DNA of 64,000 nucleotides from Janthinobacterium sp. LM6 (lineage in GTDB: Bacteria; Pseudomonadota; Gammaproteobacteria; Burkholderiales; Burkholderiaceae_D), in the NCBI RefSeq assembly GCF_002002885.1, contig NZ_CP019510.1, forward strand, positions 1,302,001 through 1,366,000. Reading direction: 5' to 3'. Positions 2,287 through 29,563 of the stretch are shown here, one piece after another (the first letter of the stretch is position 1; the number at the start of each line of letters is the position of its first letter). The notes beneath the pieces were generated by a model. It had not been told where the DNA came from, ran no database searches, and saw nothing but the letters and a program-made list of their open reading frames with translations. The translations under genes were made by a program, and so were the position numbers.

Positions 2287-3900
2287 TTAGTTGCTTGAGG
2301 ACACTTTATCCCAGTCGAGGGTAAAGCGGGCCAGGAATTTCTTGAGCCGGTCCGCATCGTTCGGCCTGGCTTTCGCTTCGCGCGAGACGGCATACAAGGT
2401 ACGGCCTGCATCGGACAGGCTGTTCGATTCTCGGCATACCTTGATCACTGCCTGCAGCTGCAGCGCATCGAACAGGTCGAGTTGCGCGCTTGCTGGCTCT
2501 CCCATGATTTCTGCCAAATCCACTTCCGGATTATCATTCTGAGTAACATGATGTTGCCACATGCGTTTCAGGCGCTTGATCTCTTCGTCGACCACGCCAT
2601 CCGTGATGCGGCCCGCCTCGGACAAGGTGGCCAGGCGCGTGACAGACGCGGACAAATCGCGGAAATTGCCTTTCCAGGCGGAGGTGGGCAGGGTGGCAAA
2701 GCGCATGAAGCGTTCGCGCGCTTCCTTGTTGAAGCGCACTCGTTCCCCCGTCTCGGCGCTGTATTGTGCCAGCTGGTATTCCAGGTTCGGCTCGATGTCT
2801 TCCGGCCGCTGCGCCAGGCCCGGCAATTCGTAGGTCCACAGGTTGATGCGCGCATACAGGTCTTCGCGGAAGCGGCCGGCCATCACTTCTTTGCCCAGGT
2901 CGCGGTTGGTGCCGGCGATCAGCTGGAAGTCGCTCTGCACCTCCGTATCGGCACCGACGGGAAAGAAGCGCTTTTCTTCAATGGCTTTCAATAGCATGGC
3001 CTGTTCATCGAGTCCCAGTTCGCCAATTTCATCAAGAAACAGCAGTCCCTTGTGCGCGCTGCGCAGCAAGCCGGGACGATCCGCGCCCGCGCCCGTGAAT
3101 GCGCCCTTGATATGGCCGAACAGGGTGGATGCGGCGCCGTCGCCGTGCAGGGTGGCGCAATTGAGGTCGATGAATTTTCCGTCGATCTGGTGGCGCGATT
3201 TTTTCAGTTCATACACGCGGCGCGCGAGGAAGGATTTGCCGGCACCGGTAGGCCCCATCAGCAGCATGGGGGCTTTCGATTTAATGGCGACGCGCTCGAT
3301 TTCATCGATCATGCCGTTGAATTTTGCATTGCGCGTGGCGATGCCGGACTTCAGGAAGGCCACGCCTTCAGCCTGCTCGCGCGTAAAACGCTGTGCGATC
3401 TGATCGTAGCGCGACAGATCGAGATCGATCAATGCGTAGCTGCCGGGATTGCCGGTGGCCTGGCGCTTCGGCGGCGACGTTTGTACGAGACGGCCAGGAA
3501 AATAGCGCGCTTCCGTCATCAGGAACATGCATATCTGCACCACGTGGCTGCCGGTGGTGATGTGAATCCAGTAGTCTTCCTTGTCCGGATCGAAGGGGTA
3601 GCTATTGGCAAAATCATAGAGCGCGCCATATACATTCTCGAAGTCCCAGGCATCGCTGATAGGCAGTTCATGGGAGATCAGTCTGGTTTCCGGCGAGACG
3701 CTGGCAATATCCTGCGACACCTGGCGTACCAGGTTGTCGAACTGGCTGCCCGCGTACAGCAACTCGAAGCGGTCGATGATCTTGTCCTCGTGCTGGGTCA
3801 GGGCGATGCTGGGGCGCCACTTTTCCCAGCGTGCCGCTCCCCTGCCATTGTCGAGCTGCGTGCCGAGAAAACCGATGACGACGGTGCGTTTTGCTTGCAT
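2287..3900 (-). CDS. rtcR: RtcR, sigma-54-dependent activator of the RNA repair operon
   Basis: This 537-residue protein is a bacterial enhancer-binding protein. Residues 1-185 form the CARF-type sensory domain typical of RtcR (start MQAKRTVVIGFLGTQLD; ITTGSHVVQICMF near 114-126). The AAA+ domain has Walker A GPTGAGKS (216-223), the sigma-54-contacting GAFTGA loop (266-271) and Walker B LLFLDEIGE (286-294). The C-terminus holds the DNA-binding part. RtcR of other bacteria is known to sense RNA-damage ligands and activate rtcBA. The gene diverges from the rsr-rtcB-rtcA unit, whose upstream region has a good -24/-12 promoter and a dyad. Length and motifs are normal, so the regulator looks functional although two accessory genes beside it are broken. 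Confidence 0.96.
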   Translation of the reverse strand: MQAKRTVVIGFLGTQLDNGRGAARWEKWRPSIALTQHEDKIIDRFELLYAGSQFDNLVRQVSQDIASVSPETRLISHELPISDAWDFENVYGALYDFANSYPFDPDKEDYWIHITTGSHVVQICMFLMTEARYFPGRLVQTSPPKRQATGNPGSYALIDLDLSRYDQIAQRFTREQAEGVAFLKSGIATRNAKFNGMIDEIERVAIKSKAPMLLMGPTGAGKSFLARRVYELKKSRHQIDGKFIDLNCATLHGDGAASTLFGHIKGAFTGAGADRPGLLRSAHKGLLFLDEIGELGLDEQAMLLKAIEEKRFFPVGADTEVQSDFQLIAGTNRDLGKEVMAGRFREDLYARINLWTYELPGLAQRPEDIEPNLEYQLAQYSAETGERVRFNKEARERFMRFATLPTSAWKGNFRDLSASVTRLATLSEAGRITDGVVDEEIKRLKRMWQHHVTQNDNPEVDLAEIMGEPASAQLDLFDALQLQAVIKVCRESNSLSDAGRTLYAVSREAKARPNDADRLKKFLARFTLDWDKVSSSN

Positions 3901-4040: not shown

Positions 4041-4056
4041 TGGCACAGCGCTTGCA
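4041..4056 (+). promoter_or_regulatory. Sigma-54 promoter (-24/-12) of the rsr-rtcBA unit
   Basis: TGGCACA-GCGC-TTGCA matches the sigma-54 consensus TGGCACR-N4-TTGCW exactly. It lies about 50 bases upstream of the rsr start codon. The divergent neighbour encodes the sigma-54 activator RtcR, so the functional match is strong. Confidence 0.88.
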
Positions 4057-4106: not shown

Positions 4107-5664
4107 ATGGCCAACGCCCAGTTATTCCAGAGCGCGCAACAGACCGGAACCTTGCCAGCGGCGCTGGCACGCAATGCCGAAGGCGCGCCAGCGTATGCGC
4201 TGACGCCACGCCATCAGCTGGCACAGTATGCAGCCACGGGCTGCCTGAACACGACGTTTTATGCGACCGCCGAAGCGCAACTGGCAAAGGTGATCGAGCT
4301 GTGCCAGGCGGTCGAGCCGGCCTTCATCGCGCAGACGGCCGTGTACTGCCGCGAACGGGGCTACATGAAAGACATGCCGGCCTTGCTGGTGGCCGTGCTG
4401 GCGGGGCAGGGCGCCGCGGCATTTGCGCCGGCCTTTCAGCGCGTCATCAACAATGGCAAGATGCTGCGCAATTTCGTGCAAATCGTGCGTTCGGGCGTCA
4501 TCGGCCGCAAATCGCTGGGATCGCGTCCAAAAAAGCTGGTGCAGGCATGGCTGAACGGCGCTTCGGAACAAGCCTTGCTGGCCGCCGCCGTCGGTAACGC
4601 GCCATCGCTGGCTGACGTGGTCAAGATGGTGCACCCGAAACCGCAGGAAGCGTGGCGCGCCGCCTTCTTCGCATGGCTGATCGGCAAGCCGTACGATGCC
4701 GCGGCCTTGCCGCCGACGCTGGCCGCGTTCGAAGCTTACAAGCTTGATCCAGCGCAAACGATACCGGACGTGCCCTTCCAGATGCTGACGGCGCTGCCTT
4801 TGCGCGCGCAGGATTGGGCGCAGATCGCCCGCCAGGGCAGCTGGCAGATGGTGCGCATGAATCTGAATACCTTTGGCCGCCACGGCGTGTATGCGATAGC
4901 CGGCATGCCGGAGCTGATCGCCGCCAAGCTGCGCGATCCCGAGGCGATTGGCCGGGCACGGGTGTTTCCGTACCAGCTGATGTCGGCTTGCATGGCGGCC
5001 GGCGAGCACGTGCCGGCCGCTGGAACAGGCGCTGGAAATATCGCTGCTGAACGTGCCGCAGATCGCAGGCAAGGTGGTGGTGTGCCCCGACGTTTCCGGT
5101 TCGATGTCCTCGCCCGTCAGCGGTTTTCGCGGCAGCGCCACGTCCAGCGTGCGCTGCATCGATGTGGCGGCGCTGGTGGCGGCGGCCATGTTGCGCAAGA
5201 ATCCGGATGCTATGGTGCTGCCGTTCGAGCACAGCGTGGTGCAGTGCGGACTCGGCGCGGATGATAGCGTGATGAGCAACGCGGCCAGGCTGGCAGCCAT
5301 CGGTGGCGGCGGTACCAATTGCAGCGCGCCGCTGCTGCGCATGAACAGCAAGAAGGAGCTGGCCGACCTGGTGATTTATGTGTCCGATAACGAATCGTGG
5401 ATCGACGCCAAACGCAGCGGCGCCACGGCGACGATGGGACAGTGGAATGTCTTCAAGCAGCGCAATCCGCAAGCAAAGCTGGTGTGCATCGATATTGCGC
5501 CGCATGCCACCACGCAGGCGATGGAGCGCGAAGATATTCTGAATATCGGCGGTTTTTCCGACGACGTCTTCAAAATCATCGCCGCCTTTGCGGCCGGACG
5601 GCTGGATCCCGCCCACTGGGTGGGAGAAATCGCCGCCGTCGATATCGCAGCACCAGGTTGTTGA
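4107..5664 (+). pseudogene. rsr: Frameshifted rsr (Ro60/TROVE and vWA domain RNA-binding protein)
   Basis: The intact protein would be a Ro60 homologue, a ring-shaped binder of Y RNAs and misfolded RNAs. The first part (4107 to about 5013) reads as a TROVE domain (PRHQLAQYAATGCLNTTFYA; MLRNFVQIVRSGVIGRKSLG). The second part is a von Willebrand A domain with the MIDAS motif PDVSGSMSS, in the next frame, up to 5664. The switch falls near 5010-5022, where EHVP in frame one should continue as PLEQALEISLLNVPQIAGK in the other frame. One extra or two missing bases explain it. The start has a good ribosome site (AGAGAGGAA). Both halves otherwise look conserved, so the lesion is recent or a sequencing error. 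The gene is first in the sigma-54 unit, ahead of the structured RNA array and rtcBA. Confidence 0.85.
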
Positions 5665-5670
5665 AACAAA

Positions 5671-5727
5671 GCGCATGAATGCGGACAGGACTACATAACA
5701 GACGTCTTGTCCAAGCTTGTCATGCGC
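5671..5727 (+). ncRNA. Structured RNA unit 1 of the rsr-rtcB intergenic array
   Basis: Outer arms GCGCATGA (5671-5678) and TCATGCGC (5720-5727) pair perfectly. An internal loop (ATGC on the 5' side, AAGCTTG on the 3' side) follows. Inner arms GGACAGGAC (5683-5691) and GTCTTGTCC (5704-5712) pair with one G-U, closing a loop that begins TACAT. Architecture and loop motifs match units 2 and 3 although the stem bases differ. Likely a Y-RNA-like element, inferred from its position beside the Ro60 homologue. Confidence 0.65.
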
Positions 5728-5735
5728 CGCAGTGC

Positions 5736-5828
5736 CCCGAATGCCGACAGGATTACATCGATCAGCCGCTTCAAACCGGCCTGGCAGGCGCAGTGCGTCT
5801 GCCAGAAATCCTGTCCCGCCTTGTCGGG
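5736..5828 (+). ncRNA. Structured RNA unit 2 of the rsr-rtcB intergenic array
   Basis: Outer arms CCCGA (5736-5740) and TCGGG (5824-5828) pair. The internal loop has ATGCC on the 5' side and CCGCCTTG on the 3' side. Inner arms GACAGGATT (5746-5754) and AATCCTGTC (5807-5815) pair perfectly. The apical part is larger than in unit 1. It has a GCCG/CGGC hairpin whose loop contains TTCAAAC, which resembles a tRNA T-loop, and an 11-base-pair hairpin (5781-5791 with 5795-5805, loop AGT). A tRNA-like apical module is what one expects of bacterial Y RNAs; that identification is inference. Confidence 0.65.
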
Positions 5829-5837
5829 TTGTCGTAC

Positions 5838-5906
5838 TGATGAATGCCGGTGGAACTACATCCTGGGCCGATGCGTCGGCAGCTGTTTCACCAACCCTTG
5901 TCATCA
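5838..5906 (+). ncRNA. Structured RNA unit 3 of the rsr-rtcB intergenic array
   Basis: Outer arms TGATGA (5838-5843) and TCATCA (5901-5906) pair. The internal loop has ATGCC on the 5' side and AACCCTTG on the 3' side. Inner arms GGTGGAAC (5849-5856) and GTTTCACC (5885-5892) pair with one G-U. The loop begins TACAT, as in unit 1, and contains a GCCGA/TCGGC hairpin. It ends 30 bases before the rtcB start codon. Confidence 0.62.
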
Positions 5907-5936
5907 CCCTCTATACAATAGAAGAAGAGAATAGCG

Positions 5937-7172
5937 ATGAAAAACGAAGAATACGAAGTCCTGCATACCGAAGGCAGCCGTCCCGTGAAAATGTGGACGC
6001 GTGGCGTGCCTGTCGAAGAAGCGGCTAAAAAACAACTGCGCAACACGGCGACCCTGCCGTTCATTTACAAGCATATCGCCGTTATGCCCGACGTTCACCT
6101 GGGTAAAGGGTCGACCATCGGCAGCGTGATTCCCACCCTCGGCGCCGTGATTCCGGCCGCCGTGGGCGTGGATATCGGTTGCGGCATGATGGCGGCGAAA
6201 ACCACGCTGACGGCGAATGATCTGCCCGATAACCTGGGACCGCTGCGCAGCGCCATCGAGCGCGCCATTCCGCACGGGATGTCGCCGAAGACGCGCGGCC
6301 ACCGGGGCCGCGACGAGGGTTCCTGGCATACGCCGCCCTCGGTGGTCGACGCCGCGTGGCTGCAATTGAAAGATGAATTCGACGCCATCTGCCTGAAAAC
6401 GCCGAAGCTGAAAAACACGAACAATTATCGTCACCTGGGAACCCTGGGCAGCGGTAACCACTTCGTCGAAGTGTGCCTCGATGAACAGGGTTCCGTGTGG
6501 TTCATGCTGCATTCCGGTTCGCGCGGTGTGGGCAATGCCATCGGCACCCATTTCATCGAACTGGCCAAGCAGGATATGCGCACCCACTTCATCAACCTGC
6601 CCGACCAGGATTTGGCTTACCTGGCCGAGGGAACGCAGCATTACGACGATTACGTGGAAGCGGTGGGCTGGGCCCAGCGTTTCGCCCGCAACAACCGCGA
6701 AGTGATGATGCAAAACCTGATCGCCGCCGTGCGCACCGTCATCCACAAGCCGTTCCAGACGCATGTGGAGGCCGTCAACTGCCACCATAACTATGTGCAG
6801 AAGGAACATCACTTCGGCAAGGACGTGTTGATCACGCGCAAGGGCGCTGTCTCGGCCCGCGCCGGAGAATTGGGCATCATTCCCGGCTCCATGGGCGCGA
6901 AGAGCTTTATCGTGCGCGGCAAGGGCAATGCAGACAGTTTCCATAGCTGCAGCCACGGTGCGGGACGTACGATGAGCCGCACGGAAGCGAAGCGGCGCTT
7001 CAACCTGGATGACCAGATACGCGCCACGCAAGGCGTGGAATGCCGCAAGGATGAAAACGTGATCGATGAAATTCCGATGGCCTACAAGGATATCGATGCG
7101 GTGATGCTGGCGCAGCGCGAGCTGGTCGATGTCGTGCATATCCTGAAGCAGGTCGTCTGCGTCAAAGGTTAA
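5937..7172 (+). CDS. rtcB: RtcB, GTP-dependent tRNA/RNA-splicing ligase
   Basis: RtcB joins RNA ends carrying a 2',3'-cyclic or 3' phosphate to 5'-OH ends, using GTP and manganese. The 411-residue protein has the full set of family motifs. These are GVDIGCG (77-83), GTLGSGNHF (168-176), HSGSRG (192-197) and CSHGAGR (338-344), with His340 as the expected guanylylated residue. Length is close to the usual 400-410. The start follows a purine-rich GAAGAAGAGAA site. It is followed 16 bases later by rtcA and is probably cotranscribed with rsr and the structured RNA from the sigma-54 promoter at 4041. All motif residues are intact, unlike rsr. Confidence 0.97.
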   Translation: MKNEEYEVLHTEGSRPVKMWTRGVPVEEAAKKQLRNTATLPFIYKHIAVMPDVHLGKGSTIGSVIPTLGAVIPAAVGVDIGCGMMAAKTTLTANDLPDNLGPLRSAIERAIPHGMSPKTRGHRGRDEGSWHTPPSVVDAAWLQLKDEFDAICLKTPKLKNTNNYRHLGTLGSGNHFVEVCLDEQGSVWFMLHSGSRGVGNAIGTHFIELAKQDMRTHFINLPDQDLAYLAEGTQHYDDYVEAVGWAQRFARNNREVMMQNLIAAVRTVIHKPFQTHVEAVNCHHNYVQKEHHFGKDVLITRKGAVSARAGELGIIPGSMGAKSFIVRGKGNADSFHSCSHGAGRTMSRTEAKRRFNLDDQIRATQGVECRKDENVIDEIPMAYKDIDAVMLAQRELVDVVHILKQVVCVKG

Positions 7173-7188: not shown

Positions 7189-8208
7189 ATGATAGAAATT
7201 GATGGAGCGCAAGGTGAAGGCGGCGGACAGATTTTACGTTCGGCGCTGAGCCTGTCGATGATTACGGGGCAACCGTTTCGGCTGATTAACATTCGCGCGG
7301 GGCGGGAAAAACCCGGCTTGCTGCGCCAGCATCTGCTGGCCGTGCAGGCGGCAGCCGCCATTTGCGGGGCGCGCACGACGCCGGTGGCGCTGCGCGCGTC
7401 GAGCCTGGAATTCGTGCCCGGCCCCATACGCGGCGGCGATTACCGCTTCGCCATCGGCAGCGCCGGCAGTTGCACCCTGGTGCTGCAAACCCTGTTGCCG
7501 GCCCTGCTGCATGCGGATGAGCCATCCACCGTGCGCATCAGCGGCGGCACGCACAATGCCATGGCGCCGCCCGTGCATTTCCTGCAGCGCGCGTATGGCC
7601 GCATCCTGGAACAGATGGGCGCCGAGGTGGAGATTACGCAGCAGCGCTATGGCTTTCATCCCGCAGGCGGCGGCGAGGTGCTGGCCACCGTGCAACCGTG
7701 CCAGCGCCTGCGGCCCATCGCATTGCTGCAGCGCGGCGAAAGGAAGGCCGGGTATGCGGAAAGCGTGGTGGCGGGCGTGCATGTGCAAGTGGCGCAGCGC
7801 GAGCTCGAGCGTGTCGCCGGCGGCATGGGCTGGAGCGGCAAGCAGCTGCGCCTCGTCGGCTTGCCGGCGGAGCAGGGACCGGGCAATGTCCTGCTGTTGA
7901 CTTTAGAGCATGAGCATGTCACGGAAGTGTTTACGTCTTTCGGAGAAAAGCACTTGCTGGCCGAAACCGTGGCCAAGCGCCTGTTGAACGAGGTGCGCAG
8001 CTATCTCAAGACGGACGCGGCCGTCGGCGAGCACCTGGCCGACCAGCTCTTGCTGCCCATGGCGCTGGCGGGTGGCGGTACCTTCAGTTGCAACAAGGTG
8101 TCGCAGCATGCGCTGACGAATGCGGACGTGATTGCCCGATTTTTGCCCGTGCGTATCACTTTCGAGCAGCAGGCGCGCGGCAGCATCTGCACGGTGTCTG
8201 CCGCCTGA
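7189..8208 (+). CDS. rtcA: RtcA, RNA 3'-terminal phosphate cyclase
   Basis: RtcA uses ATP to convert RNA 3' phosphates to 2',3'-cyclic phosphates, making substrates for RtcB. The 339-residue protein starts IDGAQGEGGGQILRSALSLS, a family hallmark. It contains HNAMAPPVHFL (122-132) and HPAGGGEV (157-164), and ends with SQHALTNADV. His307 there corresponds to the adenylylated histidine of the E. coli enzyme. The start codon lies 16 bases after the rtcB stop behind AAAGAGAAAG, consistent with one operon. No lesion is seen. Confidence 0.97.
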   Translation: MIEIDGAQGEGGGQILRSALSLSMITGQPFRLINIRAGREKPGLLRQHLLAVQAAAAICGARTTPVALRASSLEFVPGPIRGGDYRFAIGSAGSCTLVLQTLLPALLHADEPSTVRISGGTHNAMAPPVHFLQRAYGRILEQMGAEVEITQQRYGFHPAGGGEVLATVQPCQRLRPIALLQRGERKAGYAESVVAGVHVQVAQRELERVAGGMGWSGKQLRLVGLPAEQGPGNVLLLTLEHEHVTEVFTSFGEKHLLAETVAKRLLNEVRSYLKTDAAVGEHLADQLLLPMALAGGGTFSCNKVSQHALTNADVIARFLPVRITFEQQARGSICTVSAA

Positions 8209-12004: not shown

Positions 12005-12020
12005 TGGCACGGCGTTTGCA
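12005..12020 (+). promoter_or_regulatory. Sigma-54 promoter of the beta-propeller gene
   Basis: TGGCACG-GCGT-TTGCA is an exact -24/-12 match, 66 bases upstream of the start codon at 12087. Confidence 0.8.
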
Positions 12021-24196: not shown

Positions 24197-25973
<1,777 letters not shown>

Positions 25974-26014
25974 GTTAGTAAGAGAAGAAACAGTAGTCGT
26001 AGTAGCACCGCGTT

Positions 26015-26091
26015 GGGGCTGTAGCTCAGCTGGTTAGAGCACCGTGTTGATAACGCGGGGGTCGTTGGTTCGAGTCCAACCAGCCCTACCA
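26015..26091 (+). tRNA. ileT: tRNA-Ile (GAT)
   Basis: Cloverleaf with acceptor GGGGCTG pairing CAGCCCT, D arm GCTCAGCTGGTTAGAGC, anticodon GAT at 26049-26051, T loop TTCGAGT, and encoded CCA. It is the first tRNA of the 16S-23S spacer. Confidence 0.97.
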
Positions 26092-26110
26092 GCTAATTAG
26101 TAAAATCTCA

Positions 26111-26186
26111 GGGGGATTAGCTCAGCTGGGAGAGCACCTGCTTTGCAAGCAGGGGGTCGTCGGTTCGATCCCGTCATCCTCCACCA
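26111..26186 (+). tRNA. alaT: tRNA-Ala (TGC)
   Basis: Cloverleaf starting GGGGGATTAGCTCAGC with anticodon TGC at 26144-26146, T loop TTCGATC and encoded CCA. It is the second tRNA of the rRNA spacer. Confidence 0.97.
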
Positions 26187-26253
26187 ATACTTTGAAAGTG
26201 CAAACGTAAGCCGTCAGGTTTAGGTTTGATCTTTTAGCGATCAAAGCTGTTTC

Positions 26254-26264
26254 GTTCTTTAACA
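26254..26264 (+). promoter_or_regulatory. boxA antitermination site ahead of 23S
   Basis: GTTCTTTAACA, identical to the boxA in the 16S leader, lies about 155 bases upstream of the 23S start. The rest of the 26187-26419 spacer holds processing sequences only. Confidence 0.7.
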
Positions 26265-26419
26265 ATCTGGAAGAAGTAAAGATTATTTATTGATCGGTTT
26301 GCCGTAAAAAGCGAATCGATGGGTAATGATTGTATGTATCAACAAACAAGCAACAACGTTGTACTTTCTTATCCCTGTAGCGCTCTTTTCGTTTGAAAGA
26401 ATGAAGAGGCTAACGTTAT

Positions 26420-29300
<2,881 letters not shown>

Positions 29301-29447
29301 ACCTTAGCAGGTACAGAGGATAAGAAAGTACATGTTGCGTGAATGTTGATCGCAATCATTACCCAAGTAATACCTCAATACATAATCCTACTTCTTCCAG
29401 ATTCATGGCTTTGTCGTCCTACAGGAGACAAATGCCGGTACAAGTTA

Positions 29448-29563
29448 TGCCTGATGACCATAGCAAGTTGGTCCCACCCCTTCCCATCCCGAACAGGACC
29501 GTGAAACAACTTTGCGCCGATGATAGTGCTGCAACCAGTGTGAAAGTAGGTTATCGTCAGGCT
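29448..29563 (+). rRNA. rrf: 5S ribosomal RNA
   Basis: Identical by eye to the 5S gene at 1481-1596, with the same flanks. The 23S-5S spacer differs at one position (A at 29322, G at 1355). Confidence 0.95.

Follow-up and report, generated by a model that had tools for sequence, protein, structure and literature searches.

A probable three-module bacterial Y RNA array between rsr and rtcB in Janthinobacterium sp. LM6

The closest described system is the Salmonella operon rsr-yrlBA-rtcBA, for which passages of PMC7790460 report two Y RNA units; the operon and the RtcR signal are described in parts of the same paper and of PMC9879122. The tRNA-like head of YrlA, as given in passages of PMC8394870, consists of D, T and acceptor arms. 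In Deinococcus radiodurans, Rsr, a Y RNA and PNPase form the RYPER complex (passages of PMC8394870 and PMC4726728). Within the titles, abstracts and passages that our literature search covered, we found no array of more than two bacterial Y RNAs, which does not establish their absence from print, and no description of ordered arrays, of two circular permutations or of stripped heads. The locus presented here bears on the question of why a Ro60 protein and Y RNAs are retained in bacteria next to RNA-repair enzymes.

We analyzed a 64,000-nt stretch of Janthinobacterium sp. LM6 (the window). Its RNA-repair operon has the order divergent rtcR, sigma-54 element, rsr, unit array, rtcB and rtcA (Table 1), confirming the rsr-rtcBA context assigned to the units in a preliminary description of this DNA. 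The gap between rsr and rtcB measures 272 nt and contains three stem-loop units. Our best explanation, which we consider highly probable, is that they form a three-module bacterial Y RNA array inside an rsr-Y array-rtcBA operon. The sigma-54 element is of a type with two matches in the window against 0.06 expected, and in 70 of 80 loci (the best 80 of 284 confirmed Rsr relatives in named genomes) TGGCAY-N5-TTGC lies no more than 300 nt ahead of rsr, compared to a shuffled maximum of 1/80. Scanning positions 5400-6100, we found no sigma-70-like promoter and no plus-strand terminator, which, together with the conserved sigma-54 element, fits a single transcript. A second sigma-54-like element, TGGCACGGCGTTTGCA, lies at window positions 12005-12020. 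The operon is flanked by rRNA operons in the same orientation, namely the end of one (1-1595) and a whole second one (24384-29562).

Table 1. Features of the rsr-rtcBA locus, in window coordinates
Feature	Position	Strand	Evidence
rtcR, sigma-54 activator of the RNA-repair operon	2287..3900	-	Pfam RtcR and Sigma54_activat
Sigma-54 (-24/-12) element TGGCACAGCGCTTGCA, putative operon promoter	4041..4056	+	motif match
rsr (Ro60 homologue), in two frames, 14-nt deletion near 5017/5018	4107..5664	+	Pfam, relatives
Y RNA unit 1, short-loop (YrlB-like) module	5671..5727	+	model R2, fold
Y RNA unit 2, CCCGA/TCGGG class, degenerate T arm and acceptor-like hairpin	5736..5828	+	model R1, fold
Degenerate T arm of unit 2	5765..5780	+	genus alignment, cross-genus alignment
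Acceptor-like hairpin of unit 2	5781..5805	+	genus alignment pairing
Y RNA unit 3, GATGA/TCATC class, tRNA-like head cut down to a hairpin	5838..5906	+	models R3 and R2; Rfam YrlA
rtcB, RNA ligase	5937..7172	+	Pfam RtcB
rtcA, RNA 3'-phosphate cyclase	7189..8208	+	Pfam RTC

The three units at 5671-5906 agree with the preliminary description in sequence, stems and coordinates. Each consists of a near-invariant GAAUGC/UUGUC internal loop flanked by variable pairing helices. A rule-based detector counted three units in the window and reached its threshold in 0/520 shuffled gaps; since the units were picked by pairing, this is the fair control. Compared to shuffled sequence, units 1 and 2 gave fold z scores of -4.75 and -4.40 and the whole stretch -3.82; unit 3 alone folded no better than shuffled sequence (z -0.64, with 44/200 shuffles at least equal). 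No unit of the window has a full tRNA-like head, and units 1 and 3 have no recognizable T arm. The T-loop-like TTCAAAC reported for unit 2 is indeed present, but we call this T arm degenerate because 16 of the 17 aligned genus members carry a G rather than the loop-opening T at its first position. The arm is nevertheless homologous by alignment to the real GGTTCGAATCC T arm of other genera. Like the rest of the CCCGA class, which in other genera carries a T arm without a D arm, unit 2 lacks a D arm. The helix of its acceptor-like hairpin is paired in 85.9% of cells among the 17 genus members, one pair being G-C in seven and C-G in six of them. The linkers at 5732-5735 and 5834-5837 pair with each other and extend the outer stem of unit 2, and a second TTGTC lies on the 3' side. 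One pair of this linker helix varies in the genus, with G-U in 10 members and A-U in 7.

At its curated cut-offs, Rfam reports nothing in this stretch. Below them, unit 3 matches YrlA (RF02553) at 34.4 bits (E 1.3e-5; gathering score 69 bits) and unit 1 matches YrlB (RF02565) at 18.3 bits (E 1; gathering score 97 bits), while at E 10 neither unit 1 nor unit 2 matches YrlA, and unit 2 matches no Rfam family. Across 12 Rsr loci, Rfam at its cut-offs reports seven YrlA, at most one per locus, and no YrlB, whereas the detector counts 54 units. Because Rfam is silent here, we built covariance models R1, R2 and R3 from other genera only, with no rows from the genus. All three units were recovered in this way. 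R1 found unit 2 at 74.8 bits (E 2.8e-19) and unit 3 less well (E 2.4e-7), R2 found unit 1 at 49.1 bits (E 9.4e-10) and unit 3 at 45.3 bits (E 8.2e-9), and R3 found unit 3 at 48.6 bits (E 2.1e-10). The best other match of these models in the window had an E value of 0.097 and lay over true tRNA-Ile and tRNA-Ala genes.

The 106 units from 26 family loci were reduced to 87 distinct stem composites, in which GAAUGC and UUGUC scarcely vary. At each of the twelve inner pair positions, 79-87 of these composites are paired, and up to six standard pair types occur, in agreement with the covariation between stems that had been claimed; the two outermost columns are paired in only 41 and 45. In an alignment of 17 genus members made without using structure, 95.0% of cells are paired. 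Covariation in this alignment was 0.061 versus 0.053 in shuffles (1/500 reaches it), and at most 0.028 when the structure was slid. Many pairs are invariant within the genus, and support for covariation at this level is modest, since pairs changed on both sides number 5 versus 3.1 in shuffles (30/500 reach it) and further pair types 23 versus 22.1 (191/500 reach it). The paired bases are thus kept in the 87 composites as well as in the 17 genus members; the loss of pairing in relatives that would have spoken against the stems was not seen.

We then looked at the linkage of the units to rsr. In the family survey, RtcB was found in 56 of 195 genomes and 50 were examined, leaving out G048, G103 and G130 (distant RtcB paralogue only), G017 and G018 (partial) and G176. 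With the detector reading up to 1100 nt upstream of rtcB, units were present at all 26 rtcB loci with rsr upstream and at none of the 24 without, six of which are covered over only 1.4-1.8 kb upstream, where a more distant rsr could be missed. At the order level, Rsr occurs in 13/300 genomes, and the short-unit model matches 8 of these 13 and 0 of the other 287, taking the Rsr and unit searches to cover the same 300 genomes as their shared identifiers indicate. All these unit matches lie within 0.5 kb of rsr, one of them on its upstream side; under strict filters, the remaining 5 of the 13 Rsr genomes gave no unit-model match. The gap has matches in 19 of 40 genomes of the genus; 17 of these carry rsr together with units 1 and 2, nine of those also with unit 3. 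Two sister species (G157 and G221) lack rsr, units 1 and 2 and half of unit 3 together but retain the sigma-54 element and rtcB. Two IMG/VR viral contigs with Rsr homologues (52% identity) have no units detected within 5 kb downstream.

The stretch thus shows what characterizes bacterial Y RNAs in the broad sense: a lower stem with the YrlA-consensus internal loop and variable flanking helices, encoded next to rsr and not found where rsr is lacking. Unit 1 fits the short-loop class, in a YrlB-like place ahead of the T-arm and tRNA-like units. The head of YrlA, with its D, T and acceptor arms, is not found, as unit 2 keeps only the degenerate T arm and the acceptor-like hairpin. The earlier proposal of Y-RNA-type modules is supported by the shared stem and internal loop, the linkage to rsr and the cross-genus models. 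We conclude that the window units are bacterial Y RNA modules of a known kind, the Yrl RNAs of rsr-rtcBA operons, and regard this assignment as real and well supported.

The survey of named genomes covers the best 80 of the 284 confirmed Rsr relatives, mainly Burkholderiales with some Enterobacterales; as these are the closest relatives, our conclusions on arrays are confined to them. All 80 loci carry one to eight units downstream of rsr, 277 in total, and among 410 shuffled gaps, counted with those of the two viral loci, none reached the detector threshold. By array size, the loci divide into 4 with one unit, 18 with two, 19 with three, 23 with four, 12 with five, 1 with six, 2 with seven and 1 with eight. 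Arrays of at least three units, found in 58/80 loci, are the commonest state, so the suggestion that a triple array is a special form is not supported; the three-unit form is ordinary among rsr loci. The family relative G001 (L057) has 13 units over 1.64 kb between rsr and rtcB, with short and tRNA-like kinds interspersed. With unit kinds set by simple motif rules, by which single units may be misfiled, short units stand ahead of T-arm units in 38/38 loci (shuffle maximum 26) and ahead of full tRNA-like units in 50/50 (shuffle maximum 32), and T-arm units stand ahead of tRNA-like units in 32/45 (shuffle maximum 29). The window follows the standard order: short unit, CCCGA class, GATGA class. 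The idea that adjacent units avoid cross-pairing of their outer stems proved weak (66/394, or 0.168, versus 0.224 +/- 0.027 at random, minimum 0.145). Upstream of the rsr locus of Massilia aquatica, Rfam finds a pair of neighbouring glycine riboswitch aptamers (L126:2865-3079, minus strand).

The heads of the longer units were analyzed on 116 heads of at least 60 nt, taken from the 80 loci and from G000, G001 and G044. ARAGORN called none of them a tRNA as they stand and 53 after circular rotation, compared to 0/116 shuffled heads. The commoner head, which accounts by pattern for 69 of the 277 units, is opened on the anticodon/variable side and comprises, in this order, the T arm, the acceptor and a whole D arm. 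A second permutation is opened in the D loop, with the 3' half of the D arm first and the 5' half last; by pattern it is found in 10 units, each of them the last of its array (10/10), and five arrays hold both circular permutations. We know of no description of a tRNA permutation opened in the D loop. Examples are L132:7005-7131, L124:7098-7219, L168 near 7078 and L184 near 6909. For the last units of L168 (Methylibium rhizosphaerae) and L184 (a Proteobacteria MAG), ARAGORN at default gives a tRNA call only after rotation near the 3' end; the sequence of each reads as a D-loop-opened mimic whose variable arm is long, and each array contains the other permutation as well. Among heads of the GATGA, GGTGA and AGTGA classes, ARAGORN called 18/31 versus 1/31 shuffled when loosened to 90% and 3 versus 0 at default; at 80%, the 28 calls versus 4 shuffled make the setting too loose for use. 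An amino-acid identity for the heads was dropped, as the anticodons assigned by ARAGORN to rotated heads scatter.

Outside the genus, the class of unit 3 carries a head of 73-88 nt in 11 loci, nine of them D-loop-opened mimics by pattern; in the window, this head is a 28-nt hairpin. Given this reduction and the degenerate T arm of unit 2, Janthinobacterium has kept the Y-RNA-type stems and given up full tRNA mimicry.

What is established by computation are the modules, their common Y-RNA-type stem, their homology in the same order across genera and their linkage to rsr. For the three-module Y RNA array that we favor, we propose the following mechanism. RtcR, activated as in Salmonella by tRNA fragments ending in a 2',3'-cyclic phosphate, would drive one sigma-54 transcript, in which the modules would fold separately and bind Rsr by way of the GAAUGC/UUGUC internal loop and the helices on either side of it. 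The heads differ by module (short loop, T-arm/acceptor hairpin, plain hairpin), and each might tether or gate a partner, for example PNPase or a tRNA-handling enzyme. The units would probably be released from the mRNA by cleavage, and the three may exist as separate RNAs after cutting rather than as the single multi-module Y RNA of the preliminary description. In Janthinobacterium, the tRNA-like heads would have been stripped down. In LM6 the Rsr partner is probably non-functional, so the array may be newly orphaned.

An alternative that we consider unlikely is that the array is a decaying relic, its heads stripped in the genus, rsr broken in this strain and the array now inactive here. The window rsr lacks 14 nt that are present in three relatives, which places its TROVE and vWA parts in different frames, and no second rsr copy was found in the genome at E 1e-5. 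This break in rsr goes unmentioned in the preliminary description, and it may be an assembly error. The reduced heads and the two sister species that lost rsr with most of the array point the same way. However, the other 16 of the 17 rsr-bearing genus members give a single uninterrupted Rsr match, among them Janthinobacterium violaceinigrum, which has the same three units, and the helices of the window are intact, in keeping with the high pairing across the genus. In this one strain the array may still be a relic.

Slightly less likely still, in our view, is a cis element: the units would remain in the polycistronic mRNA instead of yielding free Y RNAs, and Rsr would bind its own operon transcript, thereby either autoregulating rsr or protecting or trimming the rtcBA mRNA. 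The linkers of about 8-9 nt between units, the 30 nt from the end of unit 3 to the rtcB start and the failure to find an internal promoter or plus-strand terminator in the scanned region are in line with this. Yet a plain protein site on an mRNA needs neither differing heads in conserved order nor the many permuted-tRNA mimics among them, and the Salmonella Yrl RNAs are treated, in passages of PMC4987338, as noncoding RNAs complexed with Rsr and PNPase. That the stretch is a small coding gene or a mobile palindromic repeat and folds by chance is most improbable and, as far as sequence can show, refuted: although chance ORFs overlap the stretch, no small gene is conserved (no common frame in 17 genus members, stops in shifting frames, 1-2-nt indels common), which removes the coding gene that the preliminary description had named as a possible objection, and the unit pattern matches only units 1 and 3 genome-wide, the gap has no plasmid match and the units are linked to rsr.

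Returning to the three-module Y RNA array, a wider reading, which we put forward tentatively and would not yet rank as probable, treats Y RNA arrays as ordered adaptor cassettes. Upon induction, a single transcript would supply Rsr-binding stems whose heads range from the short loop through the T-arm/acceptor minihelix to tRNA mimics of either circular permutation, and so dock Rsr to several tRNA-handling enzymes. Lineages would add, drop or strip heads, and Janthinobacterium would run the system without a full tRNA mimic. The ordered arrays, with up to 13 modules, most of them unflagged by Rfam in the 12 loci scanned, offer a natural series of putative Rsr-binding RNAs with interchangeable heads, so head identity could be matched to partner enzymes. 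Janthinobacterium provides a test case for Y RNAs without the full tRNA mimic, and LM6 possibly one for an array without its protein.

Compared to Salmonella, the window array occupies the same operon position, and the RF02553 consensus has identical GAAUGC and UUGUC loop letters. The succession of yrlB and yrlA also corresponds to the short unit followed by the tRNA-like unit in the arrays. Salmonella differs in having two units instead of three, and the window units fall short of the Rfam thresholds and are without a complete tRNA-like head. The likeness to RYPER lies in the proposed mode of working, a stem holding Rsr and a head holding another enzyme; PNPase is part of the complex there, whereas for the window array it is only a candidate partner. 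The other rsr arrays of Burkholderiales and Enterobacterales share the unit type, the unit classes and their order with the window, but in most of them T-arm heads and complete tRNA-like heads, the latter in two permutations, have been retained, unlike in Janthinobacterium.
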